Below are positions 42,377 to 60,465 of a stretch of DNA of 64,000 nt, one piece after another. The stretch's first letter is position 1, and each line of letters opens with the position of its first letter. The notes below the pieces were generated by a model that saw only the letters and a list, made by a program, of their open reading frames with translations, did not search any database and was not told the DNA's origin. The translations under genes and the position numbers were made by a program. Source of the DNA: an uncultured Aliiroseovarius sp. (lineage in GTDB: Bacteria; Pseudomonadota; Alphaproteobacteria; Rhodobacterales; Rhodobacteraceae); NCBI RefSeq assembly GCF_947497285.1, contig NZ_CANMFT010000004.1, forward strand, positions 62,001-126,000. The letters run 5' to 3'.

Positions 42377-42412
42377 TTGACCTTGAATGGATTTGTGATC
42401 ACAATCGCGCCA
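42377..42412 (+). promoter_or_regulatory. gntR promoter with embedded palindromic operator, likely leaderless
   Basis: TTGACC (42377-42382) and CACAAT (42400-42405) are separated by exactly 17 bp, a good -35/-10 pair. The predicted transcription start is at about 42412, the A of the gntR ATG. The perfect palindrome TTGTGATCACAA (42393-42404) covers the -10 element and would block RNA polymerase when bound. No Shine-Dalgarno sequence precedes the ATG, which fits leaderless translation. The same core is found upstream of sucC and sdhC. Confidence 0.65.
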
Positions 42413-43062
42413 TGCAGGCACACCCTCGGCAACAGTCGGATACCACCAGCGCCCATGAACGGGTGTATCGCAGCCTGCGATCACGCATCATGCACGGCGA
42501 GCTGGATCCGGGTCAAAGCCTGACCATTCGGGGCATCGGCAAGGCCTATGATGTCTCGATGACACCGGCCCGCGAAGCGGTGCGCCGGCTGGCCGCTGAA
42601 GGCGCGTTGACGCTGTCCAGCTCAGGTCGGGTGTCGGCGCCTGATCTGACCTCTGAGCGGATCGAGGAACTTGCGGCCCTGCGCGCCTTGCTGGAACCCG
42701 AGTTGGCCTCGCGCGCCCTGCCTCGCGCCCACATGGCACTTATCGACCGGCTGCGCGCGATCAATGCGCGGGTGTCGGAAAGCGTCGCCAAACAGGATTC
42801 GGTTGGCTATCTGCGCACCAATCTGGAATTTCACCGCACGCTGTATCTGAGGGCGCAGGCGCCCGCGATTCTGGCCATGGCCGAAACGGTTTGGCTGCAG
42901 TTGGGGCCGACAATGCGGGTGCTTTATGCCACCCGGCAACGCACAGATTTGCAGACGCACCACAGAATGATCCTGGCCGCATTGGCCGCCGGGGATGAAC
43001 CAGCTTTGCGTTTGGCGGTCCGAACGGACGTGACCCAAGGGTTGAAAATGCTGGTCAGCTAG
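42412..43062 (+). CDS. GntR family regulator, FCD domain; candidate TCA-cycle regulator
   Basis: A 216-residue regulator. The winged-helix GntR domain (about 14-80) shows VYRSLRSRIMHGELDPGQSL and YDVSMTPAREAVRRLAAEGAL. The all-helical FCD ligand domain (about 85-210) follows. FCD proteins usually hold a metal with Asp/Asn and three His; here Asn137, His141 and His183/184 are visible, but the third His position is Asp206. FCD regulators bind organic acids. Its promoter carries TTGTGATCACAA, and the same palindrome lies in pairs upstream of sucC and sdhC, so it may autoregulate and control TCA genes. That role is inference; the family assignment is firm. Confidence 0.9.
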   Translation: MQAHPRQQSDTTSAHERVYRSLRSRIMHGELDPGQSLTIRGIGKAYDVSMTPAREAVRRLAAEGALTLSSSGRVSAPDLTSERIEELAALRALLEPELASRALPRAHMALIDRLRAINARVSESVAKQDSVGYLRTNLEFHRTLYLRAQAPAILAMAETVWLQLGPTMRVLYATRQRTDLQTHHRMILAALAAGDEPALRLAVRTDVTQGLKMLVS

Positions 43063-43078
43063 CGCAGGTCGTCGCTGA

Positions 43079-43537
43079 CTAAACGTCCAGATGGAAACCC
43101 CGAAATTCCTTCACGGTTGACAGGCTGAGCAGCGTTTTCATCTGCGCGAATGACGGGATCGAGGACAAACGTTCACGGTAGAGCTTTTCGTAATCTTCAG
43201 TGTTTTTGGCCGCGACCCTGAGCAGATAGTCGAACTCTCCCGAGATCAAATGGCATTCCAGCACCTCTGGCATCTCCTTGATCGCGGCCTCAAACGCCTG
43301 AATGTCCTCGCGCCGCTGACTGACCAGTTTGGCTTCGATAAACACCTGTATTTCCAACCCGATGGCTTTGCGATTCAGGCGCGCTGCATAGTTAGTGATC
43401 ATCCCGTCCGCTTCCAGCAATTTGACCCTTCGGTGACAGGCTGAAATGGACAATCCGACCTGATCAGACAGTTTGGCCATCGAAATCGCCCCGTCTTTCT
43501 GCAAGACGGAAAGAATACGTGTGTCCAGCTTATCCAT
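43079..43537 (-). CDS. Lrp/AsnC family transcriptional regulator
   Basis: A 152-residue regulator. The N-terminal HTH (about 5-60) shows LDTRILSVLQKDGAISMAKLSDQVGLSISACHRRVKLLEADGMI. The C-terminal RAM/AsnC domain shows MPEVLECHLISGEFDYLLRVAAKNTEDYEKL. The ATG at 43537 has AGGA about 10 nt upstream; the frame is open upstream without a better start. It is divergent from a UspA gene and an alanine-type symporter, which it likely controls in response to an amino acid. It converges on the GntR gene with a 16-bp gap. Confidence 0.92.
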   Translation of the reverse strand: MDKLDTRILSVLQKDGAISMAKLSDQVGLSISACHRRVKLLEADGMITNYAARLNRKAIGLEIQVFIEAKLVSQRREDIQAFEAAIKEMPEVLECHLISGEFDYLLRVAAKNTEDYEKLYRERLSSIPSFAQMKTLLSLSTVKEFRGFHLDV

Positions 43538-43683
43538 CGTAATTTTTCCTAATTTTTTTGGCCTGATCGTAGTTTTTGCGCAATTTATCCCAATCCGCAA
43601 GAAATAAGGGAACCTTTTCAAGTCCCGTGCTGATACGCTAAAGTTACTTAACACGTGACAAATTCACCCAAGGGAGGAAGAAA

Positions 43684-44118
43684 ATGTCCAACAAAATCGT
43701 CGTCGGGTACGATGGCAGCGAAAGCGCGCATGCGACGCTAGATTTCGCGGTCGGACTGGCAAAAGCACAAGGTGCCAGTATCGTTGTCGCCCATGTGCTG
43801 GAATGGTCGCCCTATTCATTCCTGACACCAAACGAGCTGGAAGAACGCCACAAAAGACGTGGTGAAGAGCTTGATCGCGCTGAAAAAGCCATTTTGGGAC
43901 CGGTCATGAAAAAGCTGGAAAACAGCGGCGTCCCGGTGACCAAAGCGCTGCGCTACGGCGGCATTGCCGACACCTTGTGTGACATCGTCAAGGCAGAAGG
44001 CGCTTCGCAAGTGGTCGTCGGACGGACGGGCAACTCTGGCTTGTCGTCTCGAATCTTCGGGTCGGTTGCGGGCAGTTTGGCTCAGATCTCGCCTGTGCCA
44101 GTGACAATTGTTCCATAA
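43684..44118 (+). CDS. Universal stress protein (UspA family), symporter-associated
   Basis: A 144-residue UspA-fold protein. VVGYDGSESAHATLDFAVGLAK opens the sequence, and VVVGRTGNSGLSSRIFGSVAGSLAQISPVPVTIV closes it with a complete G-2x-G-9x-G(S/T) ATP-binding pattern. GGGAGG precedes ATG 43684. It lies 21 bp before the sodium:amino acid symporter, an arrangement parallel to the TRAP-UspA pair at 28584, so ATP-dependent control of transport is plausible. Confidence 0.92.
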   Translation: MSNKIVVGYDGSESAHATLDFAVGLAKAQGASIVVAHVLEWSPYSFLTPNELEERHKRRGEELDRAEKAILGPVMKKLENSGVPVTKALRYGGIADTLCDIVKAEGASQVVVGRTGNSGLSSRIFGSVAGSLAQISPVPVTIVP

Positions 44119-44139
44119 AAAAAGCGAACAGGGATAGTT

Positions 44140-45684
44140 ATGAATAGAACACTAAAGGCAGCGGCGATCGCCGCACCGGCCGTTCTGGCAGCGACAGCGC
44201 CTGCACTGGCCCAATCCATCGACCAAAAGGTCAACGAAATCTTCGCGAACTCGACCGGATGGTTTGTGAACCTGATCTTCAGCCCGTTTCCCGGAACATC
44301 CTTCCCGTGGATCGTCGCTTGGCTGGTGATCGCAGCCACCATCTTTACGCTTTACTTCGGATTTATCCAGTTCCGTGCGTTTCCGCATTCAATCTCGCTG
44401 GTCAAGGGCGACTACTCCGACCCAGATGACGCAGGCGAGGTGAGCCACTTTCAGGCACTCGCAACCGCCTTGTCGGGCACGGTCGGGCTGGGCAACATCG
44501 CAGGTGTCGCCGTGGCCGTCGGCATCGGCGGGCCAGGTGCCACGTTCTGGATGATCCTTGCGGGTCTGATGGGCATGGCCTCCAAGTTCACCGAATGTAC
44601 GCTTGGTGTGAAATACCGCAACGAATACGAAGACGGCACCGTGTCCGGCGGCCCGATGTATTACATGACCAAGGGTTTCACCGAACGTGGCCTGCCTGCG
44701 GGCAAGTTCATGGCGGTGTTGTTCTCGATCTTCTGTATTCTTGGTGCGCTGGGCGGTGGAAACATGTTCCAAGCCAATCAGGCACATGCGCAGATCACCA
44801 ACGTGGTCGGAGACTTCCCAGGCTGGATCACCGGCATCGTCTTTGCCGCGATCGTTTTCGCGGTCATCATTGGCGGACTGAAATCCATCGCCAGCGTGAC
44901 CGAGAAGGTCGTGCCCTTCATGGGTGTTCTTTATGTGTTGACCGCGTTGGTCATCCTTTTGATGAACGCCAACATGATCGGCTGGGCGTTCGGTCAGATC
45001 TTCGCAGGTGCCTTCACCGGACTTGGCGTTGCTGGCGGTATGGTTGGCGCTCTGATCCAGGGTTTCAAACGGGCCGCGTTTTCGAACGAGGCGGGTGTTG
45101 GGTCGGCTGCGATTGCCCACTCGGCGGTGCGGACCAAGGAACCAATCACCGAGGGTTTTGTGTCCTTGCTTGAGCCGTTCATCGACACCGTCGTGATCTG
45201 CACCATGACCGCGCTTGTGATCATCATCACGGGCCAGTTGGTCAGCGACCCTGCAACGGGCCTGTATCTGCTGGACGAAGGCGGCGCGACCATCCAGACC
45301 ATTGATGGCAACAAAGGTGTGGCCCTGACCTCGGCGGCGTTCTCGTCATCCTTTGGTTGGTTCAAATACGTCCTTGCCATCGCGGTGATCCTGTTCGCAT
45401 TCTCGACCATGATCAGCTGGTCCTACTATGGCCTTAAGGCGTGGACCTTTCTGTTCGGCGAAGGCCACACGAAAGAGATCGTGTTCAAGGTGATTTTCTG
45501 CATCTTCGTGGTGATCGGTGCTTCGGCCAATCTTGGCCCGGTGATCGACTTCTCGGACGCGGCAATCTTTGCCATGGCGGTCGTAAACATCGTGGCGCTT
45601 TATTTCCTGATGCCGATCGTGAAAGGCGAACTCGACAGCTATCTGTCACGCCTCAAATCGGGTGAAATTCGGAAATTCGAATGA
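44140..45684 (+). CDS. AGCS family sodium:alanine symporter
   Basis: A 514-residue transporter with about 11 membrane helices. The AGCS signature GTVGLGNIAGVAVAVGIGGPGATFWM is present, followed by MASKFTECTLGVKYR, GGPMYYMTKGF and FKRAAFSNEAGVGSAAIAHSA. The N-terminus (about 1-26, ending APALAQS) looks like a cleavable signal peptide, uncommon for this family in other phyla. It imports alanine or glycine with sodium. The adjacent Lrp-type regulator fits amino acid-responsive control. A strong terminator follows. Confidence 0.93.
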   Translation: MNRTLKAAAIAAPAVLAATAPALAQSIDQKVNEIFANSTGWFVNLIFSPFPGTSFPWIVAWLVIAATIFTLYFGFIQFRAFPHSISLVKGDYSDPDDAGEVSHFQALATALSGTVGLGNIAGVAVAVGIGGPGATFWMILAGLMGMASKFTECTLGVKYRNEYEDGTVSGGPMYYMTKGFTERGLPAGKFMAVLFSIFCILGALGGGNMFQANQAHAQITNVVGDFPGWITGIVFAAIVFAVIIGGLKSIASVTEKVVPFMGVLYVLTALVILLMNANMIGWAFGQIFAGAFTGLGVAGGMVGALIQGFKRAAFSNEAGVGSAAIAHSAVRTKEPITEGFVSLLEPFIDTVVICTMTALVIIITGQLVSDPATGLYLLDEGGATIQTIDGNKGVALTSAAFSSSFGWFKYVLAIAVILFAFSTMISWSYYGLKAWTFLFGEGHTKEIVFKVIFCIFVVIGASANLGPVIDFSDAAIFAMAVVNIVALYFLMPIVKGELDSYLSRLKSGEIRKFE

Positions 45685-45718
45685 TCACCTCCTGATCGTT
45701 CAATCTGCTAGAAAAACC

Positions 45719-45752
45719 AGAGCCTCCGGCCCCGCCGGTGGCTCTTTCTTTT
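45719..45752 (+). terminator. Intrinsic terminator after the symporter gene
   Basis: AGAGCC-t-CCGGC-CCC-GCCGG-t-GGCTCT forms an 11-bp stem with one T-T mismatch and a 3-nt loop, followed by TTTCTTTT. It is a textbook rho-independent terminator for the Usp/symporter transcript. Confidence 0.9.
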
Positions 45753-45776
45753 GAAGACCGCGCGCTTTCGCATGCT

Positions 45777-46268
45777 TCAACCGGCTGAGAAGCTATAATA
45801 GTCCATCAGGTGTTGCTGATAGTCCCGGCGAGCGACTGTCACGCCGCTATGGGCCACAGCCGCCGTCGCCTTGGTCCAGAACCCCAATGCAGGGGTGTTT
45901 TCAACCAACACCCGCACCTGCCATTGTCCTGGATGGCACCTGACAGTCTGGTGAAACGCCTCGATGCCGACCGCCTTACCGCGAAAGGCGCGCAGGGTGA
46001 AAAACTGACCCATATCGAAGATCGCGTCGTCATCCGTTGCCACCCGCACCAGCGAAAACCCCGCAATTTGGTCGTCGGCATAGATGAAATAGGGCCAGTG
46101 GTCATCTCGCGCCCAATACGGTGTCAGCAAATCCTGCGGATAGGCAAACAACCCATTCGCACCCACCGGCCAGCGCATGAATTGGGACATATCATGCAGG
46201 TAAAGCTGGAACAGTCGCTCAAACGCCGAACGTTGGGCCTGTTCGATCGGCCTTAGGGAAATGGTCAT
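45777..46268 (-). CDS. GNAT-type N-acetyltransferase
   Basis: A 163-residue protein with a GNAT-like pattern: SLRPIEQAQRSAFERLFQLYLHDMSQF at the N-terminus, IAGFSLVRVA in the central strand, and MGQFFTLRAFRGKAVGIEAFHQTV in the region of the acetyl-CoA pyrophosphate loop (a weakly conserved R-x-x-G-x-G/A). ENTPALGFWTKA is the usual later helix. The substrate cannot be deduced. It lies between two terminators and is transcribed on its own from the minus strand. Confidence 0.8.
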   Translation of the reverse strand: MTISLRPIEQAQRSAFERLFQLYLHDMSQFMRWPVGANGLFAYPQDLLTPYWARDDHWPYFIYADDQIAGFSLVRVATDDDAIFDMGQFFTLRAFRGKAVGIEAFHQTVRCHPGQWQVRVLVENTPALGFWTKATAAVAHSGVTVARRDYQQHLMDYYSFSAG

Positions 46269-46311
46269 ACTAGTCGCCTTTCGGTTTCATCACGTGCAAC
46301 ACGCCAATGAA

Positions 46312-46360: not shown

Positions 46361-47746
46361 TTAGGCGTGGATCGCGCCATCGCCGCAGGCCAGCGCCGCT
46401 TCGCGCACTGCTTCCGAGAAGGTCGGGTGGGCGTGGCAGGTGCGGGCCAGATCCTCGGCCGAGCCGCCGAATTCCATCAGCACGCAAGCCTCGTGGATCA
46501 ATTCGCCCGCTGCGGGGCCCATGATGTGGACACCCAGAACGCGGTCGGTGTCTTTATCGGCCAAGATTTTCACGAAACCCTCGCCTTGGAACACGGCTTT
46601 CGCACGACCATTGCCCATGAAGCTGAACTTGCCGACCTTATAGGCGCGGCCTTCTTTCTTCAGCTCTTCTTCGGTCTTGCCGACAGAGGCAACTTCCGGC
46701 GCGGTATAGACCACCCCCGGAATAACATCGTAATTCACGTGACCGGCCTGACCTGCGATGGCTTCTGCGGCGGCCATGCCTTCATCTTCGGCCTTGTGGG
46801 CCAGCATCGGGCCTTCGATGACGTCGCCAATGGCCCAGACGCCCGGTACCGAGGTTTTCCAATGGTCGGTCGCGATCTGACCCCGTTCGGTCATTTTCAC
46901 GCCCAGCGCGTCCAATCCCAAACCTTCGACATACGGACGGCGTCCGGTGGCAACCAGCACCACATCCGCGTCAATCGCGTGTTCGCTGTCATCCTTGTGC
47001 AGCTTGTAGTTCACGGTCGCCTTGGTTTTCTTGGCATCCACATTCTGAACAGCCGCACCCATGATAAAGCTCAGCCCCTGCTTTTTCAGCGCGCGCTGGA
47101 AGGTCTTGGCAAGGTCGCTGTCCATCCCCGGCGTGATCGCGTCAAGGAATTCAACGACCGTCACCTCGGCGCCCAGACGTGCATAGACCGACCCCATTTC
47201 CAGCCCGATCACACCTGCGCCGATCACAACCATTTTCTTTGGAACCTTCGGCAACTCAAGCGCCCCAGTGGAGGTCACGACGACCTTCTCGTCCACCTCG
47301 ACGCCCGGCAGGGTCGACGGCTCGGACCCGGAGGCAATCACGATGTTCTTCGCGTTGTGGACGTCGTCACCCACCTTGACCTGACCGGCGGCGGGGATCG
47401 ACGCCCAGCCCTTGATCCAGTCGACCTTGTTTTTCTTGAACAGGAACTCGATGCCCTTGGTGTTCTGACCGATGACGTCATCCTTATAGGCCAGCATCTG
47501 CTTCCAATCGACCGAGGGGGATTTCCCCTTCAGGCCCATCTTGGCGAAGTTGTGCTCGGCCTCGTGCAGGCTGTGGGAGGCGTGAAGCAGCGCCTTGGAC
47601 GGGATGCAGCCGACGTTCAGACAGGTGCCGCCCAGCGTCTCGCGCCCTTCGACACAGGCGGTTTTCAGGCCAAGTTGAGCGCACCGGATCGCGCAGACAT
47701 AGCCGCCCGGGCCACCGCCGATGATGATTACGTCATAGTCTGCCAT
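46361..47746 (-). CDS. lpdA: Dihydrolipoamide dehydrogenase (E3)
   Basis: A 461-residue flavoprotein disulfide reductase. FAD site [16 protein letters not shown], redox-active [16 protein letters not shown] (Cys-x4-Cys), NAD site [21 protein letters not shown], second FAD motif [20 protein letters not shown] and the catalytic His/Glu in [14 protein letters not shown] are all present. It reoxidises dihydrolipoamide of the 2-oxoglutarate dehydrogenase complex encoded upstream. ATG 47746 has AAGGA about 9 nt before it; the ATG at 47764 is in frame but less supported. It is the last gene of the suc-odh operon. Confidence 0.96.
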
Positions 47747-47833
47747 GTGTCTCGTTCCTTTCATTTGGGGTCTGGGCGCGGCGCATGTCCGCCATCGTCC
47801 CGCTCACCCCGGAGCATTCTTGCCTAGTGATAT

Positions 47834-48223
47834 TCATATGAGCGCCGAGATCAACATCACGGTCGTCGCGATGAAACCCACGAACCAGATCAGCGAACGC
47901 CAAGGCGACCAGCCAAACAGGTATGCGGGAAGATACAAAAGCCGCGCGCCCAGATAGACATAGGCGCATGTTGCGGTCGTCGCCGTGGACTGACCCGATA
48001 GCGAGACCACAACCACGGCGGCGGTGAACAGGATCAACCCTTCGAAATGGTTGTTCATCGCCCGCTGCGCACGCCCCGCCTTGCCCGTCAGCTCCCGCGG
48101 CTTGTCACGGGGCGAGGCCGCGTATTTCGACCCCACCTGCATCTGCCCCAGCACGGAGTAGATGCAGAACTGGACCACTTGCAACAGGCCTGCGAGGGCG
48201 AGGATGGTGAGTTCGGGGGTCAT
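47834..48223 (-). CDS. MAPEG family membrane protein
   Basis: A 129-residue protein with four membrane helices. The segment AQRAMNNHFEGLILFTAAVVVV (about 53-74; RAMNNHFEGL is the family signature) identifies the MAPEG (membrane-associated eicosanoid/glutathione) superfamily. Bacterial members are mostly of unknown function and some bind glutathione. The start overlaps the preceding unknown gene (ATGA) and lpdA follows after 87 bp, so it sits inside the suc operon. Confidence 0.88.
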   Translation of the reverse strand: MTPELTILALAGLLQVVQFCIYSVLGQMQVGSKYAASPRDKPRELTGKAGRAQRAMNNHFEGLILFTAAVVVVSLSGQSTATTATCAYVYLGARLLYLPAYLFGWSPWRSLIWFVGFIATTVMLISALI

Positions 48224-48768
48224 GATACGGATTCTGCTTCGTCGCTAAGCGACTGAGTAATATCGGACAGCACAGTGCGTCCGACCAAGAACGCAAGTGC
48301 AGCGATCAAGAACACCAGAATTATCGTAAAGACGCCGTTGACGGCTTCGACCGGGTTAAAGATCCCCCAAATCAAGAATGCTGTTTGCATTACGATTGCA
48401 GATCCAAGAATGCCGCAGGTGATATCAAGTCGCAAATCCAGCGAGAGCAGCCTTCCAGCCTGCTCTTTGTTGTCGCTGAACACCAATCTGTTCACCGACT
48501 TGCGAATGTCGTTCTGCGATTTGCGCAGCATTTTCCAGAAAGACCACCGCCCGAACTGAACTAAGCATTCCCCAATAAAAACAGTGATTACAAGGCTGAA
48601 CGCAAAGTAATAAAACCCACTTATGGGGGCGTCGGACAAAAGAGTCGTATAACTGCTCGTAACGCCCGTTCCGCCGTCTTCGTCCACGTAGACCAGCATG
48701 CCCAATGGGCCACTTCCGAAGCCCATCAGGATCGCTGTTCTAGGGACAGAGCCGGGGATGTTCAGCAC
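48220..48768 (-). CDS. Unknown membrane protein inserted in the suc operon
   Basis: A 182-residue protein that I do not recognise. It has hydrophobic segments near 47-68, 113-133 and 142-165, and a basic loop between them (FWKMLRKSQNDIRKSVNRL). It starts at GTG 48768 with GGAG 8 nt upstream, 16 nt after the odhB stop, and overlaps the MAPEG start by 4 nt. The DNA is visibly more AT-rich than its neighbours. It may be a recent acquisition that kept the operon reading through. No function is proposed. Confidence 0.65.
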   Translation of the reverse strand: MLNIPGSVPRTAILMGFGSGPLGMLVYVDEDGGTGVTSSYTTLLSDAPISGFYYFAFSLVITVFIGECLVQFGRWSFWKMLRKSQNDIRKSVNRLVFSDNKEQAGRLLSLDLRLDITCGILGSAIVMQTAFLIWGIFNPVEAVNGVFTIILVFLIAALAFLVGRTVLSDITQSLSDEAESVS

Positions 48769-48784
48769 CTTGTCGGCTCCTTAC

Positions 48785-50284
48785 TTACAAATCCATCAAC
48801 AACCGGCGCGGATCCTCAAGCGCTTCTTTCACGCGCACAAGGAAGGTCACGGCGCCTTTGCCGTCCACGATCCGGTGGTCATAGGACAGCGCCAGATACA
48901 TCATCGGGCGGATCACGACCTCGCCGTTGATCGCCATCGGGCGGTCCTGGATTTTGTGCATGCCAAGGATACCCGATTGCGGCGGGTTCAGGATCGGCGA
49001 GGACATGAGCGAGCCATAGACACCACCGTTCGAGATGGTGAAGGTGCCGCCCTGCATTTCGTCCATCGAGAGCTTGCCGTCACGGGCGCGACGACCCTTT
49101 TCAGCAATCGCTTTTTCGATGGTGGCGAAAGACATTGCGTCCGCATCGTTGATCACCGGCACCACAAGACCCGTAGGGGTGCCCGCGGCGACGCCCATGT
49201 TCACGTAGTTTTTGTAAACGATGTCGGTGCCGTCAATCTCGGCGTTCACTTCCGGCACTTCTTTCAGCGCGTGACAGCAAGCTTTGGTGAAGAACGACAT
49301 GAAGCCCAGACGCACGCCGTGTTTTTTCTCAAACTCGGCTTTGTATTCGTTGCGCAGCGCCATCACCTCGGTCATGTCGACCTCGTTATAGGTGGTCAGC
49401 ATGGCGGCGGTGTTCTGGCTGTCTTTCAGACGGCGCGCGATGGTTTGGCGCAGGCGCGTCATCTTCACACGTTCTTCGCGGGCCGGGTCCCCAGCAGCGC
49501 GCGGTGCAGCGGGCGCGGCAGCGGGCGCAGGGGCAGCTTTCGGTGCGGCCACGGCGGCAGCAACGTCATGCTTCATCACGCGACCATCGCGGCCCGTGCC
49601 TTGCACGTCGCCCGGCTTCAAACCGGCTTCTGCCATGGCTTTCTTGGCCGAGGGCGCGTCTTCGACATCCTTGCCAGCGGTCGCAGCCGAAGACGCGGCA
49701 GCGGGTGCGCTGGCGGCGGGTGCGGCGGCGGCACCAGCGCCCGACGACAGAACAGCAAGCTTGGCCGAGGCATCAACCGTGGTCCCTTCGGCGGCGAGGA
49801 TCTCGGTCAGCACACCTGCGGCAGGTGCAGGCACTTCGACCGAAACCTTGTCGGTTTCAAGTTCGCACAGCATTTCATCTTGCGCGACGGTGTCGCCGAC
49901 TTGCTTGAACCAGCTGGACACAGTGGCCTCGGTCACGCTTTCGCCAAGGCTGGGGACCATCACGTCTACGGCCTGACCTTCGCCACCTGATGCAGCGGGG
50001 GCCGCTTCGGCCTTCGGCTTCGCAGCAGGCGCGGGGGCGGCCCCTTCGCCTTCACCGATGGTTGCCAGAAGCGCGTCAACGCCTACGGTTTCCCCTTCGG
50101 CAGCGACAATTTCGCCCATCGTGCCAGCGGCAGGCGATGGCACTTCGACGGTCACTTTATCGGTTTCAAGCTCGCAGAGCATTTCATCGACCGCGACCGC
50201 ATCGCCCGGCTTCTTGAACCAAGTGGCGACGGTGGCTTCGGTGACGCTTTCACCCAGTGTGGGGACCCTTACTTCAATGCTCAT
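48785..50284 (-). CDS. sucB: Dihydrolipoamide succinyltransferase (E2) with two lipoyl domains
   Basis: A 499-residue E2o. Two lipoyl domains are present, with the lipoylated lysines at about 43 (ETDKVTVEV) and 146 (ETDKVSVEV), joined by Ala/Pro-rich linkers. A peripheral-subunit-binding domain ([25 protein letters not shown], about 213-237) and a catalytic domain with [12 protein letters not shown] follow. Enterobacterial E2o has only one lipoyl domain. It transfers succinyl groups to CoA within the 2-oxoglutarate dehydrogenase complex. It is separated from sucA by 3 nt. Confidence 0.95.
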
Positions 50285-50287
50285 GGC

Positions 50288-53266
50288 TTATTTCCCTTCC
50301 ATGTTCAGCGCCGCGTCCACGAGCGCCTCTTGTTGTGCTTTGTGCGTTGAGGCCAGACCGGTTGCGGGCGACGCCGCAGCAGGGCGCCCCACATAGTCGG
50401 GGCGCGTATGCTTGGCCCCGATCCGGGTCAGCACCCATTCGATATTCGGTTCAACGAAGGTCCAGGCGCCCTGGTTCTTGGGCTCTTCCTGACACCAGAC
50501 GATTTCGGCCCCTTTGAAGCGTTCCAGTTCCTTCACCAGCGACATAGCGGGGAAGGGATAGAACTGCTCAAGCCGCAGCAGATAGACGTCTGTGATCCCG
50601 CGGCGGTCGCGTTCTTCCAGCAGGTCGTAATAGACCTTGCCCGAACACATCACGACGCGCTTGATCTTCTTGTCCGTGACCAGCTTGGCCTCGGACCGGC
50701 CCGTGCCGTTGTCGCGGTCGCCATCGTCCCACAGCACGCGGTGGAAGCTGGAGCCTTCGGTGAAGTCTTTCGCGTCCGACACCGCCAGCTTGTGACGCAA
50801 AAGCGATTTCGGCGTCATCAGGATCAGCGGTTTGCGATAGCCGCGATGAAGCTGGCGGCGCAGGATGTGGAAATAGTTGGCGGGCGTGGTGCAGTTGGCC
50901 ACGATCCAGTTATCGCCCCCGCACATTTGCAGGAAACGTTCCAGACGGGCCGAGCTGTGTTCCGGCCCCTGCCCTTCGAAGCCATGCGGCAGAAGGACGG
51001 TCAGACCGGACATGCGCAGCCATTTGCTTTCGCCCGAGCTGATGAACTGGTCAAACATGATCTGCGCGCCGTTGGCGAAGTCGCCAAACTGCGCCTCCCA
51101 CATGACCAGCGCGTTGGGTTCGGCCAGCGAATAGCCATATTCGAACCCCAGCACCGCGTATTCCGACAGCATCGAGTCGATGACTTCGTAACGTGCCTGG
51201 CCTTCGCGGATGTTGTTGAGCGGATAGTAACGCTCTTCCGTGTCCTGGTTGATCAGGCCGGAGTGACGCTGGCTGAACGTGCCGCGTGTGGCGTCCTGCC
51301 CTGACAGGCGCACCGGGAACCCTTCGGTCACAAGCGAGCCGAACGCGATGGCCTCGCCGGTTGCCCAGTCGAACCCGGACCCGGTTTCGAACATCTCTTT
51401 CTTGGCGTCCAGAAGGCGACCCACGGTTTTGTGCAGTGGGAAACCCTCGGGCGCCGTGGTCAGGGCTTTCCCGACCTCAGCCAGAGTTTCTGACGAAATC
51501 TCGGTCTTGCCTCGCTGATATTCGTCGCTTTCCTTGTCCAGATGCGACCAGCGCCCGTCCAACCAATCGGCCTTGTTGGGTTTGTAGTCTTTCCCAGCCT
51601 CGAACTCTTCGTTCATCTTGGCCTGAAAAGCGGCTTTCATATCTTCGATCTCGCCCGCCGGAATCAATCCGTCCTTCACCAGACGATCCGTATAGATCTG
51701 AAGCGTCGTCGGGTGCTTTTTGATCCGCTTATACATCAGCGGGTTGGTGAACATCGGCTCGTCGCCTTCGTTGTGACCAAACCGGCGATAGCAGAAGATG
51801 TCCAGAACCACGTCCTTGTGGAATTTCTGACGGAACTCGGTCGCGACACGCGCGGCGTGCACCACAGCTTCGGGATCATCGCCGTTCACATGGAAGATCG
51901 GCGCTTCCACCATCAATGCGATATCCGTCGGGTAAGGCGACGAACGCGAGAAATGCGGCGCGGTGGTAAAGCCGATCTGGTTGTTGACCACGATATGCAT
52001 GGTGCCGCCGGTTTTGTGCCCGACCAGACCGGAAAGACCAAAGCCTTCGGCCACGACACCCTGACCGGCAAACGCCGCATCACCGTGAAGCAGGATCGGC
52101 AGAACCTGATCGCGGTCCTTGTCATTCATCTGCTCTTGCTTGGCGCGCACTTTCCCCAGAACAACGGGGTTCACGGCCTCAAGGTGGGATGGGTTGGCGG
52201 TCAAGCTCAGGTGCACGATATTGCCGTCAAACTCGCGGTCCGAACTGGCGCCAAGGTGGTATTTCACATCGCCCGAGCCGTCGACCTCTTCCGGTTTGAA
52301 GCTGCCACCCTGAAATTCGTTGAAGATGGCGCGATAAGGCTTTTGCAGCACATTGGCCAGCACAGACAGACGCCCGCGGTGGGGCATGCCCATCACGATG
52401 TCTTTCAGGCCAAGCTGCCCGCCGCGCTTGATGATCTGTTCCATTGCGGGGATCAGCGCCTCGCCACCGTCCAGACCAAACCGCTTAGTGCCCATGTATT
52501 TGACATGCAGGAATTTCTCGAACCCTTCGGCCTCGACCAGCTTGTTCAGGATCGCTTTGCGGCCCTCGCGAGTGAACTTGATCTCGCGGTCAAACCCTTC
52601 GATCCGCTCTTTCAGCCATGCCGACTGAACGGGGTCCGAGATATGCATGTATTGCAGTGCAAACGTGCCGCAATATGTGCTTTTCACAATCGCCAAGATG
52701 TGCCGCATCGAGGCGACTTCAAGCCCCAGCACATTGTCGATGAAGATCGGGCGATCCATATCAGCTTCTGTGAACCCGTAGGAGGCTGGATCAAGCTCGG
52801 GGTGATCGCTGTCCTCTCGCATGCCCAGCGGGTCAAGATTGGCGGCCAGATGGCCCCGGATCCGGTAAGCCCGGATGATCATCAGGGCGCGAATGCTGTC
52901 CAGCACGGCGCGTTTGATCTGATCGTCCGACAGCTGAACACCCTTCTCGGCCGCCTTCGCTTCGATCTTTTTGCCCGCAGATTTGGCTTCGGCCACCGGT
53001 TCTTCGGGCCACTGGCCATCCAACCCGTGCACCCGATCGCCGGTCGGCATCGGCGGCCAGTCACTACGCGACCATGACGGCCCAGCCGCTTCGGCGGTTA
53101 CATCACCGCCGTCATCGCCAAGCTCGGTAAAAAACGCTTGCCACGCAGCATCGACCGCATTGGGGTCGCGCGCATATTGGGCGTAAAGCTGTTCTAGATA
53201 CTCAGCATTGTGGCCTTGCATGAAGCTTGAGGCATGGAAAAGGTCGTTCGGGCTCTGATCCGTCAT
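50288..53266 (-). CDS. sucA: 2-oxoglutarate dehydrogenase E1 component
   Basis: A 992-residue thiamine-diphosphate enzyme. It has the N-terminal E2-binding segment (LEQLYAQYARDPNAVDAAWQAFF), the ThDP/Mg region GMPHRGRLSVLANVL and HGDAAFAGQGVVAE, substrate-site histidines in SRHSGLINQDTEERYYPLNN-type sequence, and the C-terminal YYDLLEERDRRG...YPFPA. It decarboxylates 2-oxoglutarate and passes the succinyl group to E2. Spacing to sucD is 61 nt and to sucB 3 nt, in the order sucC-sucD-sucA-sucB-...-lpdA. Confidence 0.97.
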   Translation of the reverse strand: MTDQSPNDLFHASSFMQGHNAEYLEQLYAQYARDPNAVDAAWQAFFTELGDDGGDVTAEAAGPSWSRSDWPPMPTGDRVHGLDGQWPEEPVAEAKSAGKKIEAKAAEKGVQLSDDQIKRAVLDSIRALMIIRAYRIRGHLAANLDPLGMREDSDHPELDPASYGFTEADMDRPIFIDNVLGLEVASMRHILAIVKSTYCGTFALQYMHISDPVQSAWLKERIEGFDREIKFTREGRKAILNKLVEAEGFEKFLHVKYMGTKRFGLDGGEALIPAMEQIIKRGGQLGLKDIVMGMPHRGRLSVLANVLQKPYRAIFNEFQGGSFKPEEVDGSGDVKYHLGASSDREFDGNIVHLSLTANPSHLEAVNPVVLGKVRAKQEQMNDKDRDQVLPILLHGDAAFAGQGVVAEGFGLSGLVGHKTGGTMHIVVNNQIGFTTAPHFSRSSPYPTDIALMVEAPIFHVNGDDPEAVVHAARVATEFRQKFHKDVVLDIFCYRRFGHNEGDEPMFTNPLMYKRIKKHPTTLQIYTDRLVKDGLIPAGEIEDMKAAFQAKMNEEFEAGKDYKPNKADWLDGRWSHLDKESDEYQRGKTEISSETLAEVGKALTTAPEGFPLHKTVGRLLDAKKEMFETGSGFDWATGEAIAFGSLVTEGFPVRLSGQDATRGTFSQRHSGLINQDTEERYYPLNNIREGQARYEVIDSMLSEYAVLGFEYGYSLAEPNALVMWEAQFGDFANGAQIMFDQFISSGESKWLRMSGLTVLLPHGFEGQGPEHSSARLERFLQMCGGDNWIVANCTTPANYFHILRRQLHRGYRKPLILMTPKSLLRHKLAVSDAKDFTEGSSFHRVLWDDGDRDNGTGRSEAKLVTDKKIKRVVMCSGKVYYDLLEERDRRGITDVYLLRLEQFYPFPAMSLVKELERFKGAEIVWCQEEPKNQGAWTFVEPNIEWVLTRIGAKHTRPDYVGRPAAASPATGLASTHKAQQEALVDAALNMEGK

Positions 53267-53327
53267 GGGGTCACCTGAAAATTGGTAAACGCGCGCCCCG
53301 GGAAATGGGGCGCGCGAAGTGCTTTAC

Positions 53328-54212
53328 TTATTTGCCGATCGCTTCCAGCACGGCCTCGCCCAGTGTGGCGGGGCTATCGGCAACCACGATACCAGCGGCA
53401 CGCATAGCTTCGATCTTATCTTCGGCACCGCCTTTACCACCAGCAACGATGGCACCAGCGTGGCCCATCCGACGACCCGGAGGCGCCGTGCGGCCCGCGA
53501 TGAAGCCAGCAACCGGCTTCCAGCGGCCTTTCTTCTTCTGTTCGGCCAGAAATTCAGCCGCTTCTTCTTCAGCCGAGCCACCGATTTCACCGATCATGAT
53601 GATCGACTGCGTCTCGTCGTCGTCCAGGAACATGTCCAAAACGTCGATATGCTCGGTGCCTTTGATGGGGTCGCCCCCGATGCCGACAGCGGTCGACTGG
53701 CCCAGACCGATATCCGAGGTCTGCTTCACAGCCTCATAGGTCAAAGTGCCGGAGCGCGACACAACACCGACCGAGCCACGCTTGTGGATATGGCCGGGCA
53801 TGATGCCGATTTTACAAGCGTCGGGCGTGATGACACCGGGGCAGTTCGGGCCAATGAGGCGGCTTTTCGAGCCGTCCAGCGCACGCTGAACGCGCATCAT
53901 GTCCAGCACGGGAATGCCTTCGGTGATACAGACGATCAGTTCCATCTGCGCGTCGATCGCTTCAAGGATCGAGTCCGCTGCGAAGGGCGGCGGCACGTAG
54001 ATCACGGAAGCGTTGGCTTCAGTGACGTGCTTTGCCTCGTGTACCGAGTTAAAGACCGGAAGATCCAGATGCGTCTGCCCACCTTTGCCCGGCGTCACAC
54101 CGCCGACCATCTTGGTGCCATACGCAATGGCCTGTTCCGAGTGAAAGGTGCCCTGCGAGCCGGTAAAGCCCTGACAGATTACCTTGGTATTTTCGTCGAT
54201 AAGGACTGCCAT
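53328..54212 (-). CDS. sucD: Succinyl-CoA synthetase alpha subunit
   Basis: A 294-residue protein. CoA-binding [29 protein letters not shown] is at the N-terminus. [16 protein letters not shown] and the phosphorylated His of [16 protein letters not shown] (about 246) complete the ligand grasp of SucD. With SucC it converts succinyl-CoA to succinate with formation of ATP or GTP. It starts 4 nt after the sucC stop. Confidence 0.97.
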
Positions 54213-54216: not shown

Positions 54217-55410
54217 TTAACCTTTCACCGCTTTCACGATTTTCTCTGCGCCGTCCGACAGGTTGTCTGCCGCGATGACGTTCAAGCCGGAACCGTTGAT
54301 GATGGCTTTGCCCTCATCCACGTTGGTGCCTTCAAGGCGCACAACCAGCGGAACTTGCAGGCCGACCTCTTTCACCGCGGCGACCACGCCTTCGGCGATG
54401 ACGTCACAGCGCATGATGCCGCCGAAAATGTTGACCAAGATGCCTTTGACCTGCGGGTCCGAGGTGATGATCTTGAACGCCTCAGTGACTTTCTCTTTGG
54501 TCGCGCCGCCACCAACGTCAAGGAAGTTGGCAGGTTCAGCGCCGTAAAGCTTGATGATGTCCATCGTGGCCATTGCCAGACCGGCACCGTTCACCATGCA
54601 GCCGATTTCACCGTCCAGAGCGATATAGTTCAGGTCGTATTTCGACGCTTCCAACTCTTTGGGGTCTTCTTCGGTGGTGTCGCGCAGTTCGGCGATATCG
54701 GCGTGGCGGTAGAGCGCGTTGCCGTCAAAGCTGACTTTCGCATCCAGCACTTTCAGATCACCGCTGTCGGACACGATCAGCGGGTTGATCTCCAGCATCT
54801 CCATGTCCTTCTCGGTGAAGGCTTGGTAGAGCTGGCCCATCAGTTTCACGCATTGCTTGATCTGCGCGCCTTCCAGTCCCAGCGAGAACGCGATGCGGCG
54901 GCCGTGGAAGCCTTGATAACCCGTTGCGGGATCAACCGAGAAGCTCAGGATTTTTTCGGGGGTCGCGGCGGCCACCTCTTCAATGTCCATGCCGCCTTCG
55001 GTTGAGCAGACGAACGAAATGCGCGATGTTTGGCGGTCAACCAGCAGAGCGAGGTAAAGCTCACGCTCAATGCCGGAACCGGCCTCGATATAGATGCGGT
55101 TGACTTGCTTGCCGGCCGGGCCGGTCTGGTGGGTCACAAGGGTGCGGCCCAGCATCTTCTTGGCTTCTTCAGCAGCTTCCTGCACCGATTTGGTCAGGCG
55201 CACACCGCCCTTTTCGCCAGCGCCAGCTTCCTTGAAAGTGCCTTTGCCGCGGCCACCTGCGTGGATTTGCGCTTTGACCACCCAAAGGGGGCCGTCGAGT
55301 TCACCTGCGGCGGTCTTGGCTTCTTCTGCTCTCAATACGGGGCGTCCGTCGGAAACGGGGGCTCCGTAGGATTTCAGAAGGGCTTTCGCCTGGTATTCAT
55401 GAATGTTCAT
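54217..55410 (-). CDS. sucC: Succinyl-CoA synthetase beta subunit
   Basis: A 397-residue ATP-grasp protein starting [48 protein letters not shown] and [15 protein letters not shown] are characteristic of SucC. It is the first gene of the suc-odh-lpd operon; its 254-bp upstream region holds paired TGTGATCACA palindromes and a GTTAGCGCAA motif. mdh lies upstream on the same strand but is closed off by its own terminator. Confidence 0.97.
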
Positions 55411-55502
55411 GAAGTCATCCTATCCAGTTGGTCCATTTGGTCGGAGACACCATGCACAGGTGAAGCAGTGATAAGAAACACTTTTTGGGGAAAGGCGCTG
55501 TT

Positions 55503-55554
55503 TTGCGCTAACTTTCCGTTTTTTGTGATCACAGCCGAAAAAGTGTGATCACAA
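55503..55554. promoter_or_regulatory. sucC control region: two TGTGATCACA palindromes and GTTAGCGCAA
   Basis: TTGTGATCACAg (55523-55534) and gTGTGATCACAA (55543-55554) have core centres exactly 20 bp apart, two helical turns, so dimers would sit on the same face. Toward sucC on the minus strand, GTTAGCGCAA follows at 55512-55503. The same elements in the same order precede sdhC. I could not fix the -35/-10 with confidence. Confidence 0.65.
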
Positions 55555-55610: not shown

Positions 55611-55645
55611 CCAAAAAGAAAGGGCGCCCAACAGGACGCCCTTTC
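55611..55645 (-). terminator. Intrinsic terminator of mdh
   Basis: A 9-bp stem GAAAGGGCG / CGCCCTTTC with a 10-nt loop lies 20 bp after the mdh stop. On the minus strand it is followed by TTTTTGG. It isolates mdh from the suc operon, so sucC needs its own promoter. Confidence 0.88.
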
Positions 55646-55664
55646 CGGAAAATGCATTGCGAGA

Positions 55665-56642
<978 letters not shown>

Positions 56643-56785: not shown

Positions 56786-57544
56786 ATGCCCGAGGCACTT
56801 GACCTTACATTCTTTGCCTTTGCGATCCCTGCGGTGATCTTTGCAGGTATTTCCAAGGGGGGCTTCGGGTCAGGGGCGGCATTTGCAGCGACCCCGCTGC
56901 TTGCGCTGATTCTGGAGCCGGGGGCGGCCATCGGGTTGATGTTGCCGCTTCTGATGCTGATGGATGTGACCGCGCTGAAACCCTATTGGCGCAAATGGGA
57001 TACGCCGTCGGCCAAGGCTCTGGTGCTGGGCGCGGTTCCCGGCGTCGCGATTGGGGCGCTTTTGTATTCCATCGCCAATCCCGACATCTTTCGTCTGTTG
57101 ATCGGGCTGATTGCGGTCGGGTTTGTCGCGTTTCAGGCCGCAAAGTCACGCGGTTGGATCAAACCCGCGCCGAACCCAATGTCTGCCGGTATGGGTGGGT
57201 TCTGGGGCTTGATCGCAGGCTTCACCAGTTTTATCAGCCATGCAGGTGGCCCGCCCGCAGCCGTGTTTCTGCTGTCGCGACGCCTTGACAAGACCACCTT
57301 TCAGTCCACGACGGTGATCAGTTTCTGGGCGATCAACCTTCTGAAATTCATTCCCTATTTTGCACTCGGGATATTCACATGGCAGACCGCCAAGGCCGAT
57401 CTGTTTCTGATTCCATTTGCAATCATCGGCGTCTGGATCGGTGTGCATATGCACCACCGCCTGTCCGAACGTGGCTTTTTCGCCTTCACTTATCTGTTCC
57501 TGATCCTCACTGGCACGAAGCTGATATGGGAAGGGCTGACCTGA
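56786..57544 (+). CDS. TauE/SafE family sulfite or anion exporter
   Basis: A 252-residue protein with about eight hydrophobic helices. FAGISKGGFGSGAAFAATPLLALIL is the first TauE/SafE repeat, and GFTSFISHAGGPPAAVFLLSRRLDK is the second. The family transports sulfite, sulfoacetate or other organic anions. I chose ATG 56786 with GAGG upstream; the frame is open earlier without a better site. The gene lies between divergent mdh and mcl2 without a clear functional partner. Confidence 0.88.
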   Translation: MPEALDLTFFAFAIPAVIFAGISKGGFGSGAAFAATPLLALILEPGAAIGLMLPLLMLMDVTALKPYWRKWDTPSAKALVLGAVPGVAIGALLYSIANPDIFRLLIGLIAVGFVAFQAAKSRGWIKPAPNPMSAGMGGFWGLIAGFTSFISHAGGPPAAVFLLSRRLDKTTFQSTTVISFWAINLLKFIPYFALGIFTWQTAKADLFLIPFAIIGVWIGVHMHHRLSERGFFAFTYLFLILTGTKLIWEGLT

Positions 57545-57649
57545 TCCGGCCCCGCCTTCCAAGATTTTCTGCAATGCGGCAAATCTGGCCTTGCGGATTG
57601 GTGCGCAAATGTGGTCCCTTGCGCAACAATATTGCGGAGGCCCAGAATC

Positions 57650-58498
57650 ATGTCCACTCGTCCCTATCGTTCCGTCCTTTATATCCCCGGCTCGAAAGAG
57701 CGTGCGTTGGAGAAAGCCCGCACGCTGCCCGCCGATGCGATTATCTTCGACCTTGAAGATGCCGTAGCACCCGACGCCAAGGTCGACGCCCGCGCGATCC
57801 TGAAGGCGGAACTGGGCAAGGGTGGCTATGGCAACCGCGCCAAGATCGTCCGTATCAACGGGTTTGATACCAAATGGGGCAAGGATGATGTGGCCGCCTT
57901 TGTTGGTGCCGATATTGACGCGATCCTGATGCCCAAGGTGGACAATGCCTCGCAACTGGACGAGTTGGCCGCTCTGATCCCCGATGTGGACCTGTGGGCG
58001 ATGATGGAAACACCGTTGGGCATGTTGAACGCCGCCGAGATCGCCGCCCACCCGCGCCTTAAGGGCTTCGTTTTGGGCACCAATGACCTTGCCAAGGAAC
58101 TCAACACCCGTTTCCGCGCGGACCGCCTACCGATGATGGGCGGGTTGCATCTGTGCTTGTTGGCCGCCAAGGCCCACGGCCTGGTGATCATCGACGGCGT
58201 CTATAATGCCTTTAAGGACGATGAGGGACTGCGCGCCGAATGCGCTCAAGGGCGCGACATGGGCATGGACGGCAAAACTCTGATCCACCCGGCGCAACTG
58301 GACATCGCCAACACCGCCTTCGCCCCGTCCGAAGATGAGATCGACCTCGCCCAGCGCCAGATCGCCGCGTTTGAGGACGCCGAGGCGTCGGGCCAAGGCG
58401 TCGCGGTTGTGGATGGTAAAATTGTCGAAAACCTGCATGTTGTGACGGCAAAGGGCATTCTGGCCAAAGCAAAGGCCATTGCCGACATGGCAAAATAA
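57650..58498 (+). CDS. mcl2: Malyl-CoA thioesterase / CitE-like lyase, probable Mcl2
   Basis: A 282-residue HpcH/HpaI aldolase-family protein. SVLYIPGSKERALEKARTLPADAIIFDLEDAVAPDAK is the CitE/Mcl N-terminus with metal-binding Glu/Asp. IDAILMPKVDNASQL, MMETPLGMLNAAEIA and GKTLIHPAQLDIAN follow. In Rhodobacter sphaeroides the gene at this position in the mdh-mcl2-mch-sdh order encodes (3S)-malyl-CoA thioesterase, which hydrolyses malyl-CoA in the ethylmalonyl-CoA pathway; I recall that order from memory. GGAGG lies 9 nt before ATG 57650. A malyl/methylmalyl-CoA lyase activity is the alternative. Confidence 0.85.
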   Translation: MSTRPYRSVLYIPGSKERALEKARTLPADAIIFDLEDAVAPDAKVDARAILKAELGKGGYGNRAKIVRINGFDTKWGKDDVAAFVGADIDAILMPKVDNASQLDELAALIPDVDLWAMMETPLGMLNAAEIAAHPRLKGFVLGTNDLAKELNTRFRADRLPMMGGLHLCLLAAKAHGLVIIDGVYNAFKDDEGLRAECAQGRDMGMDGKTLIHPAQLDIANTAFAPSEDEIDLAQRQIAAFEDAEASGQGVAVVDGKIVENLHVVTAKGILAKAKAIADMAK

Positions 58499-58512
58499 GG
58501 CGGAGAACGCAC

Positions 58513-59061
58513 ATGACCATCCTGATCATCGGTTTAGCACTTTGGTATGCTGGGCATTTCTGGAAACGCGCCCTGCCCGCGCGCCACGCCGCGATGGGCG
58601 ACAAGGCAAAAGGGACGTCGGCGCTGATCCTCGTCGCCAGCATCGTCCTGATGGTGATCGGGTATCGCAGCGTCGAAAGCTATGATCTGCTGACCTATCC
58701 GTCATTCCTGAAACACATCAACAATCTGGCGATCCTGTTCGCGATCTACTTCATGAGCCCCGGCCCCTCGAAAGGCGCGCTGTTTTACAAGATGCGCCAC
58801 CCGATGCTGACCGGCTTCATCATCTGGTCCGTCGCGCATATCGTTGTGAACCCTGATCTGGCCTCGATTGTGCTGTTTGGCGGGCTGACGATTTGGGCGG
58901 TAGCCGAGGTGATCGTGATCAACCGCGCCGAGCCGAACTGGACGCCGAACCCGAAAGGCACAATTGCCAAAGACGGCATGTTTCTTGGGGCGGCGCTTGT
59001 GCTGACCCTGATCATCGGGCTGATCCACGGGTTGATCGGGCCGTCGGTATTCGGAGGGTAG
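58513..59061 (+). CDS. NnrU family membrane protein
   Basis: A 182-residue protein with about five membrane helices. YAGHFWKRALPA, FKHINNLA-like and FYKMRHPMLTGFIIWSVAHIVVNPD (about 91-115) are the NnrU signature. The family was named for a nitric oxide reductase-linked gene but is widespread and of unclear function; weak isoprenylcysteine-methyltransferase-type similarity is sometimes noted. It lies between mcl2 and DUF1737 in a tight operon (14 and 2 nt spacing). Confidence 0.85.
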   Translation: MTILIIGLALWYAGHFWKRALPARHAAMGDKAKGTSALILVASIVLMVIGYRSVESYDLLTYPSFLKHINNLAILFAIYFMSPGPSKGALFYKMRHPMLTGFIIWSVAHIVVNPDLASIVLFGGLTIWAVAEVIVINRAEPNWTPNPKGTIAKDGMFLGAALVLTLIIGLIHGLIGPSVFGG

Positions 59062-59063
59062 AC

Positions 59064-59267
59064 ATGAAACTCTATCGCCTGCTGACAGAAGACGACACCT
59101 CGGCGTTTTGCCACAAAGTGACCGCAGCCTTGAACAAAGGCTGGGAATTGCATGGCGATCCCGCCTATGCCCACGACGCCTCCACCGGATTAATGCGTTG
59201 CGCGCAAGCGGTGGTGAAGGTCGTGCCGGGCGACTACTCCCCCGACACAAAACTCGGAGACCACTGA
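59064..59267 (+). CDS. DUF1737 small protein
   Basis: A 67-residue protein, MKLYRLLTEDDTSAFCHKV... with GWELHGDPAYAHD in the middle and QAVVKVVPGDYSP at the end, matching DUF1737. It starts 2 nt after the NnrU stop, with GGAGG a few nt upstream, and its stop shares one base with the mch start (TGATG). The function is unknown. Its place inside the ethylmalonyl-CoA gene group is conserved in relatives as far as I recall. Confidence 0.87.
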   Translation: MKLYRLLTEDDTSAFCHKVTAALNKGWELHGDPAYAHDASTGLMRCAQAVVKVVPGDYSPDTKLGDH

Positions 59268-60301
59268 TGGCGAAAACCAATCCGGGCCGCTTCTTTGAGG
59301 ACTATAAGCTGGGCGACGTGATCCACCACGCCGTGCCGCGCACCGTGGCCGAAGGCGAACGCGCGCTGTATCACGCACTGTATCCTGCCCGCCACGCACT
59401 GTATTCGTCAGACGAATTCGCAGGCGCTTGCGGGTTGGAAGGGTCACCGATTGACGACCTGATCGCGTTCCACGTGGTGTTTGGCAAAACCGTTCCCGAT
59501 ATTTCACTGAACGCAGTGGCAAATCTTGGATATGCCGAAGGTCGCTGGCTGAAACCGGTCTATCCCGGTGACACGCTGCGATCCTCGTCCGAGGTGATCG
59601 GGCTGAAACAGAACTCCAACGGGAAATCGGGCGTGGTCTGGGTGCGCACGCGTGGTGTGAACCAAGTGGGCGAGCCGGTGTTGGAATATGTGCGCTGGGT
59701 GATGGTGCGCAAGAACGATTTGGACGCGCCCGCACCAGAAACTGTCATCCCCGACCTGAAAGGCACATTGAACGCCAGCGATCTGGTGATCCCTGAGGGG
59801 CTGTCTTTCGAGGACTATGATTTCTCCTTGGCCGGAGAGACGCACCGCTGGGGCGACTATGAAGTGGGTGAGAAAATCGACCACGTTGATGGCGTTACCG
59901 TTGAGGAAGCCGAACACATGATCGCCACGCGCTTGTGGCAGAACACCGCCAAGGTTCATTTCGACGCAACCTTCCGTCCCGATGGGCAGCGCTTGATCTA
60001 TGGTGGGCATGTGATTTCGATGGCGCGGGCGTTGTCCTTCAACGGGCTGGCGAACGCACAGATGATCGTTGGGCTAAACGGCGGCGCGCACGCGAACCCC
60101 TGCTTTGCAGGCGACACGATCCGCGCATGGTCCGAGGTGCTGGACAAGGCCGACACTGACGCGCCGGGCGTGGGGGCTGTGCGCTTGCGCTTGGTCGCCG
60201 TCAAACATGGCGCGCCTGAGTTTGCCTTGAAGGGCGAGGACGGGAAATACCTTCCCGAAGTGATGCTGGATCTCGATTATTGGGCATTGATGCCCAAATA
60301 A
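59267..60301 (+). CDS. mch: Mesaconyl-CoA hydratase (beta-methylmalyl-CoA dehydratase)
   Basis: A 344-residue double hot-dog MaoC-like hydratase. It opens MAKTNPGRFFEDYKLGDVI and shows HRWGDYEVGEKIDHVDGVTVEEAEHMIATRLWQNTAKVHFD in the second MaoC half, with GRRLIYGGHVISMARALSFNGLANA-like active-site helix. This length and opening are those of Mch from the ethylmalonyl-CoA pathway of Rhodobacter. It hydrates mesaconyl-C1-CoA to methylmalyl-CoA. It is coupled to DUF1737 and precedes sdh; the other pathway genes (ccr, mcm) are outside the window. Confidence 0.92.
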   Translation: MAKTNPGRFFEDYKLGDVIHHAVPRTVAEGERALYHALYPARHALYSSDEFAGACGLEGSPIDDLIAFHVVFGKTVPDISLNAVANLGYAEGRWLKPVYPGDTLRSSSEVIGLKQNSNGKSGVVWVRTRGVNQVGEPVLEYVRWVMVRKNDLDAPAPETVIPDLKGTLNASDLVIPEGLSFEDYDFSLAGETHRWGDYEVGEKIDHVDGVTVEEAEHMIATRLWQNTAKVHFDATFRPDGQRLIYGGHVISMARALSFNGLANAQMIVGLNGGAHANPCFAGDTIRAWSEVLDKADTDAPGVGAVRLRLVAVKHGAPEFALKGEDGKYLPEVMLDLDYWALMPK

Positions 60302-60404
60302 TGCATCGGCTTCATAACCAAGGCGGAAGCAACCACGCGCCGGATATCTGCATGCGGTTGTGTGCAGAACCTGATTTTTTCAGTCAGGGTTAAGCATTGG
60401 AAAA

Positions 60405-60465
60405 ATGTGATCACATCTAGAAAATTTGTGATCACAAGCGCCTGTTTTCCCCTTTGTTAGCGCAA
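60405..60465. promoter_or_regulatory. sdhC control region: two TGTGATCACA palindromes and GTTAGCGCAA
   Basis: Perfect palindromes ATGTGATCACAT (60405-60416) and TTGTGATCACAA (60426-60437) have centres 21 bp apart, about two turns. GTTAGCGCAA follows at 60456-60465, in the same order as upstream of sucC. The whole 258-bp region between mch and sdhC holds no gene. GAAGGAGG serves as the sdhC ribosome site further down. The pair is the strongest match to the gntR promoter palindrome. Confidence 0.7.

Follow-up and report, generated by a model that had tools for sequence, protein, structure and literature searches.

The stretch of DNA considered here, called the window, comprises 64,000 nucleotides from an uncultured Aliiroseovarius sp. 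of the Rhodobacteraceae (contig NZ_CANMFT010000004.1, positions 62,001 to 126,000). It carries a gene for a GntR-type transcription regulator (gntR) and the suc and sdh operons of the tricarboxylic acid (TCA) cycle, and these three loci share a short palindrome, the 10-mer TGTGATCACA, which is the subject of this analysis. The gene sucC heads the order sucC-sucD-sucA-sucB-lpd; sucA, encoding the E1 component of 2-oxoglutarate dehydrogenase, matches an equivalog model above cut-off, and sucD, sucB and lpd were named by reading their open reading frames (ORFs), which have orthologues in identical order in a Rhodobacter sphaeroides-like genome, G094 (genomes and loci are denoted by G and L handles). 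The first two sdh genes give Sdh_cyt matches, the SdhD anchor and SdhA equivalogs are above cut-off, and sdhB was again named by reading its ORF, with an orthologue in identical order in G094. The pair of palindromes at 55.5 kb lies between mdh and sucC, more precisely between a terminator-like hairpin after mdh and sucC, and this stem-loop would set the sucC promoter apart from mdh. A consensus scan for promoters before sucC and sdhC found none. In the window, as in G094 and in Paracoccus denitrificans, gntR is adjoined by ygjP. The coordinates are collected in Table 1.

The palindrome occurs in exactly five exact copies in the window, all outside genes. The first is separated by 8 bases from the gntR ATG at 42412, and it overlaps the second, -10-like hexamer (42400-42405) of TTGACC-17-CACAAT, the sole promoter-like match of a consensus scan within 42300-42480. 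Among 100 dinucleotide-preserving shuffles of the window, the mean number of copies was 0.05 and the maximum 2, none of the 100 reaching five. The longer 12-mer TTGTGATCACAA is perfect at 42393-42404 and 60426-60437, while at 55523 and at 55543 one base deviates from it, and at 60405 two bases do. Genome-wide, exact TGTGATCACA is found nine times in 3.37 Mb, that is, the five copies of the window and four others. These four are near chance level, about 2.6 being expected when the shuffle rate of the window is scaled to the genome; one lies in a lipoyl-synthase ORF, one in a DNA-methylase ORF fragment, and the remaining two, which fall in no recognised gene, lie near folC/zapE and near an HxlR-like gene (folC, zapE and HxlR-like being names read from the ORFs, without a family search). 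An earlier note on this DNA had described five non-coding copies at the gntR, sucC and sdhC promoters, the first of them on the gntR -10, and had proposed a genome-wide scan. The copies proved to be exact matches, the placement on the -10 is a fair description given the overlap with the hexamer, and the scan places five of the nine genomic sites in the gntR/suc/sdh set. Sites inside unrelated genes, which the note had named as a possible objection should they be many, do exist, at two of the nine. The string was also met in PMC12724174, where, in the excerpt available, it is a primer.

Table 1. Features of the gntR, suc and sdh loci, in positions of the window
Feature	Position	Strand	Basis or remark
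Promoter-like TTGACC-17-CACAAT of gntR	42377..42405	+	consensus scan only
Putative operator TTGTGATCACAA on the gntR promoter, candidate for autorepression	42393..42404	.	exact match; relatives
Exact TGTGATCACA	42394-42403; 55524-55533; 55544-55553; 60406-60415; 60427-60436		
Predicted akgR orthologue (gntR): GntR winged helix and FCD domain, 216 residues	42412..43062	+	ORF, Pfam, reciprocal best match in G094
sucD, sucA, sucB, lpd	46361..54212	-	ORFs; 2 smaller ORFs between sucB and lpd
sucC, succinyl-CoA ligase beta	54217..55410	-	NCBIfam equivalog above cut-off
GTTAGCGCAAAAC	55500..55512	-	12 bases after the sucC pair
Putative operator pair ahead of sucC	55523..55554	.	20 bp site to site, 114 bases from the sucC ATG
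Terminator-like stem-loop after mdh	55617..55646	-	consensus scan only
Putative operator pair ahead of sdhC	60405..60437	.	21 bp site to site, 124 bases from the sdhC ATG
GTTAGCGC	60456-60463	+	20 bases after the sdhC pair
sdhC-sdhD-sdhA-sdhB	60560..63941	+	Pfam, equivalogs, gene order

The product of gntR has Pfam matches to GntR (6.4e-14) and FCD (8.6e-19), both above cut-off, and none of the NCBIfam models searched reached cut-off. Its closest relative in the PDB by sequence is McbR (4p9f, 2.4e-17), and the genome encodes six FCD proteins, itself included. A candidate for its identity is AkgR of R. sphaeroides, reportedly RSP_0981 according to the abstract of Imam et al. 2015 (Imam, Noguera, Donohue; mBio e02461-14). 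In the available excerpt of PMC4344238, RSP_0981 is a GntR-family regulator with predicted control of sucCD, sdh and 2-oxoglutarate dehydrogenase; in that of PMC6365646, which cites Imam et al. 2015, AkgR is a transcriptional activator whose binding sites include GTGATCAC. As far as these excerpts go, the window thus resembles the AkgR regulon in the type of regulator, in its targets and in GTGATCAC among the sites.

The genome G094 allows a direct comparison. Its reaction-centre L protein is 100% identical to the query, itself identical to a PDB reaction-centre chain, and its gene order, lpd-sucB-sucA-sucD-sucC-mdh followed by sdhC-sdhD-sdhA-sdhB-gntR-ygjP, agrees with RSP_0962-0981; from this identity and the suc-mdh-sdh-gntR order, G094 is inferred to represent R. 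sphaeroides or a very close relative. The GntR protein of the window is 73.8% identical to that of G094 over 214 residues (75% in the family-wide search), and in the reverse comparison it is the best match of the G094 protein among the FCD proteins of its own genome, the next having 38%. G094 has an orthologue at 74% beside suc and sdh and adjoined by ygjP as in the window. The place of gntR in the cluster differs, at the lpd end in the window and beside sdhB in G094. All three exact copies of TGTGATCACA in the 4.6 Mb of G094 lie within the sucC and sdhC promoters. The GntR protein of P. denitrificans is 69% identical to the window protein and has TGTGATCACA in front of its gene. In a tree of 32 rows, the window protein groups with Aliiroseovarius (99/96) and Maritimibacter (98/98).

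The paired arrangement before the two operons is widespread in the family. A pattern of two GTGATCAC sites, GTGATCAC-N10-14-GTGATCAC, is present in 287 of 292 family genomes, the reversed control pattern having 0 matches in these 292, and by our own count of the 287-genome listing about 250 genomes have exactly two pairs. Placement was examined in a sample of 60 sources, in which some genomes are represented more than once (30 sucC and 32 sdhC promoters, G094 included, after deduplication). It yielded 81 placed pairs, of which 79 lie 97-172 bp ahead of sucC (38) or sdhC (41). The spacing from site to site is 21 bp in 61 pairs, 20 in 17, 19 in one and 18 in two, and the two 18-bp pairs are precisely those found at neither gene. 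Across the family, position and spacing are kept, and variation affects the bases between the two sites and those that follow them. Outside the family, the pair is found in only five of 332 genomes of the class, the reversed control matching only G364, five times. One of the five is G437, whose pair (L128 992-1020) has a GntR/FCD protein at a distance of 175 bases; this protein shares only 30% identity with AkgR, and the paired architecture may therefore predate AkgR; in G305 the pair lies about 2.5 kb from an FCD protein with 34% identity, and the other three are G307, G492 and G594. Among the matches listed, none outside the family exceeds 42% identity.

The regulator and the pairs also occur together. 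A close orthologue was defined by an E-value of at most 1e-70, a mark fixed after the values had been seen and without dropping any row; the weakest passing genome is G198 (2.3e-72, 60%) and the strongest failing one G110 (4.7e-57, 51%). By this definition, 287 of the 292 family genomes have a close orthologue of the window regulator. Regulator and pair are both present in 286 genomes and both absent from four, while one genome has the regulator with degenerate pairs only and in another the pair is present but no regulator was detected (Fisher p about 8e-8, ignoring kinship, the four genomes with neither representing three genera). In these four, G110, G227, G141 and G232, no site with two mismatches or fewer is found within 400 bases upstream of sucC or sdhC, save a single two-mismatch site before sdhC of G227. 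G232 has no gntR in the stretch between ygjP and lpd, and both of its promoters are bare. The circuit seems to have been knocked out naturally in G232, in G141 and in the genus to which G110 and G227 belong.

Taken together, the palindromes very likely serve as operators for the GntR/FCD protein that gntR (42412-43062) encodes and that would be the orthologue of R. sphaeroides AkgR. It can be proposed that AkgR activates sucC-sucD-sucA-sucB-lpd and sdhCDAB from pairs placed upstream of their promoters, activation being taken over from the AkgR literature. Two AkgR dimers would probably occupy the two sites of each pair, which, being two helical turns apart, both lie on one face of the helix. 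At its own gene, where only one site is present and overlaps the -10 region, AkgR probably acts as a repressor, and by such self-repression the circuit would limit itself. The same regulator could instead repress suc and sdh, since many FCD regulators are repressors and the site on its own promoter, overlapping a -10-like hexamer, is in a repressor position. We consider this unlikely, though not negligibly so: AkgR is termed a transcriptional activator in the excerpt of PMC6365646, and pairs located 97-172 bp before the start codons suit an upstream activator better, a distance that is measured to start codons and not to promoters.

The site on the regulator's own promoter is common among relatives. 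The region from -120 to +10 relative to the matched gntR start contains an exact 10-mer in 56 of 80 relatives, a number that rises to 69 when a single mismatch is allowed, whereas comparison windows of 130 bases elsewhere in the loci of these relatives contain the 10-mer in 14 of 10,340 cases, suc pairs counted. These 80 are the best of 447 named relatives, a survey biased to close kin and based on match starts, with start codons unchecked. The 1.42 Mb of relatives' loci hold 81 exact 10-mers, namely the 56 at gntR, 21 pair members and four elsewhere. In the four genus mates searched, the site precedes the matched gntR start by 8, 8, 9 and 26 bases. The predicted gntR promoter would place the transcript start nearly at the ATG, giving a leaderless mRNA.

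It is very improbable that a different GntR/FCD protein of this genome occupies the sites and that gntR of the window is a mere bystander. Six FCD proteins are encoded in the genome, AkgR relatives elsewhere share the palindrome, and one paralogue of the genome itself (L095) is 38% identical to AkgR. However, the loci of the five other FCD proteins (L090-L093 and L095, with about 1.5 kb to either side) contain no site with one mismatch or fewer, the window gntR has the palindrome on its own promoter, and the suc and sdh pairs are lacking in G110, G227 and G141, which have retained other FCD proteins. A chance or structural origin without any regulator, such as a palindrome of other use or an RNA hairpin, to which the four further exact sites in the genome might point, can practically be dismissed in view of the conserved position and spacing amid varying sequence and of the pairs missing in four of the five genomes that are missing the regulator.

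Several observations weigh against the assignment of the sites to an AkgR orthologue, or against its generality. G231 has a close orthologue but no exact pair; both of its promoters have degenerate sites 21 bp apart, with one or two mismatches each. Conversely, G023 has the pairs and no orthologue was detected in it; the absence of the regulator cannot be called there because the expected neighbourhood partly reads N. Pair number is not uniform, 20 of the 287 genomes having one exact pair and 16 having three or four. In the tree, the 21-row orthologue group that includes G094 is supported at 85/92 only, and the rows of G184 and G198 fall outside it without a resolved position; long branches were flagged for the tree. 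Furthermore, the palindrome is not exclusive to AkgR. FCD paralogues of G110, G227, G395 and G589 have it close by, and the excerpt of PMC6365646 proposes GTGATCAC as the site of PS417_07240, a regulator from the deoxyribonate cluster of Pseudomonas simiae that shares 32% identity with AkgR, although it serves another pathway and is no AkgR orthologue at this identity. The GntR/FCD paralogues of G110 and G227 (L161 441-2136; L162) have TGTGATCACA close upstream and are 49-52% identical to the window protein, but they belong to genomes without suc and sdh pairs, and the tree places them with the paralogues (87/99); that of G110 is divergent from an arginase-family gene, the palindrome lying between them. 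These paralogues suggest another regulon using the identical palindrome. The palindrome is thus common to a wider FCD set, and the assignment to AkgR is founded on orthology and co-occurrence and not on the motif alone. Finally, G094 lacks GTGATCAC ahead of its own gntR, where the window has an exact site, and 11 of the 80 relatives lack any site of one mismatch or fewer at gntR. Autoregulation is therefore not general.

The circuit is very probably one that was known before from R. sphaeroides, the AkgR regulon, of which the window, judged from its sequence, would be a clear example. The earlier note had linked gntR, suc and sdh through the palindromes and the site on the regulator's own promoter, and comparative genomics supports that link; the co-occurrence of regulator and sucC/sdhC sites that it asked about is seen in 286 of 292 genomes, and there is good support for its reading as a GntR/FCD regulator that governs a TCA-cycle regulon. 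One genome of 292, G023, has sites but no detected gntR gene, a combination that the note had taken as a possible contradiction; part of the expected neighbourhood reads N there. Its description of the regulon as undescribed does not hold, as control of the same three enzyme complexes was predicted for RSP_0981 (excerpt of PMC4344238) and AkgR has GTGATCAC among its sites (excerpt of PMC6365646). What is added is possibly a spacing rule for paired operators and a lineage-dependent site on the regulator's own promoter; no mention of either was met in the excerpts searched, which do not extend to the primary description, Imam et al. 2015. A family-wide rule can be formulated, by which palindromes paired at two helical turns before sucC and sdhC are lost together with the regulator and are accompanied by a negative autoregulatory site, present in many lineages though not in the R. 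sphaeroides-like one. The chances for and against this rule seem evenly balanced; if true, the middle of the TCA cycle would be a single-input module, with a feedback rewired between lineages. The regulator is herewith identified in a marine family of considerable size. Wherever sucC or sdhC is preceded by two GTGATCAC sites with a spacing of 20-21 bp, an AkgR orthologue would be predicted in the same genome.

Elements resembling the sites of a second regulator follow the pairs. GTTAGCGCAAAAC fits the pattern predicted for RSP_1663 (CceR), [AGT]GTT-N6-8-AAC[ACT], in the excerpt of PMC4344238. GTTAGCGC elements lie 12 and 20 bases past the two operator pairs and are present in genus mates too. 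In the stretch after the pair, the full CceR pattern occurs in three of 30 sucC and two of 32 sdhC promoters, and a GTTAGCG-like element within 80 bases after the pair in three of 30 and 13 of 32, respectively (shuffle means 0.08 and 0.12, maximum 2 each), in varying position and orientation. A fixed CceR element after the pairs was thus rejected: it is found in the own genus, but its position is not fixed in the family. Joint control by CceR and AkgR would agree with what the abstract of Imam et al. from 2015 is said to report.

A second target set in the genus was likewise considered, three extra exact sites recurring at similar distances in G012 and G051. It was rejected, two of the extra sites of G012 having been read (L227, L232) and found inside ORFs, so that they are taken as coding conservation. 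The genus mate G164 has 17 exact copies of TGTGATCACA, 12 of them beyond the gntR/suc/sdh set and four of those within 3.1 kb; one extra site that was read (L226) is inside an ORF. Other members of the genus have 9-10 exact copies each.

As to the effector domain, the metal in FCD domains is often held by Asp or Asn together with three His residues. In the FCD domain of the regulator, N137, H141, H184 and D206 are unchanged in 81 of 81 rows, and D206, in place of the usual His, may represent a variant of the metal-binding set.

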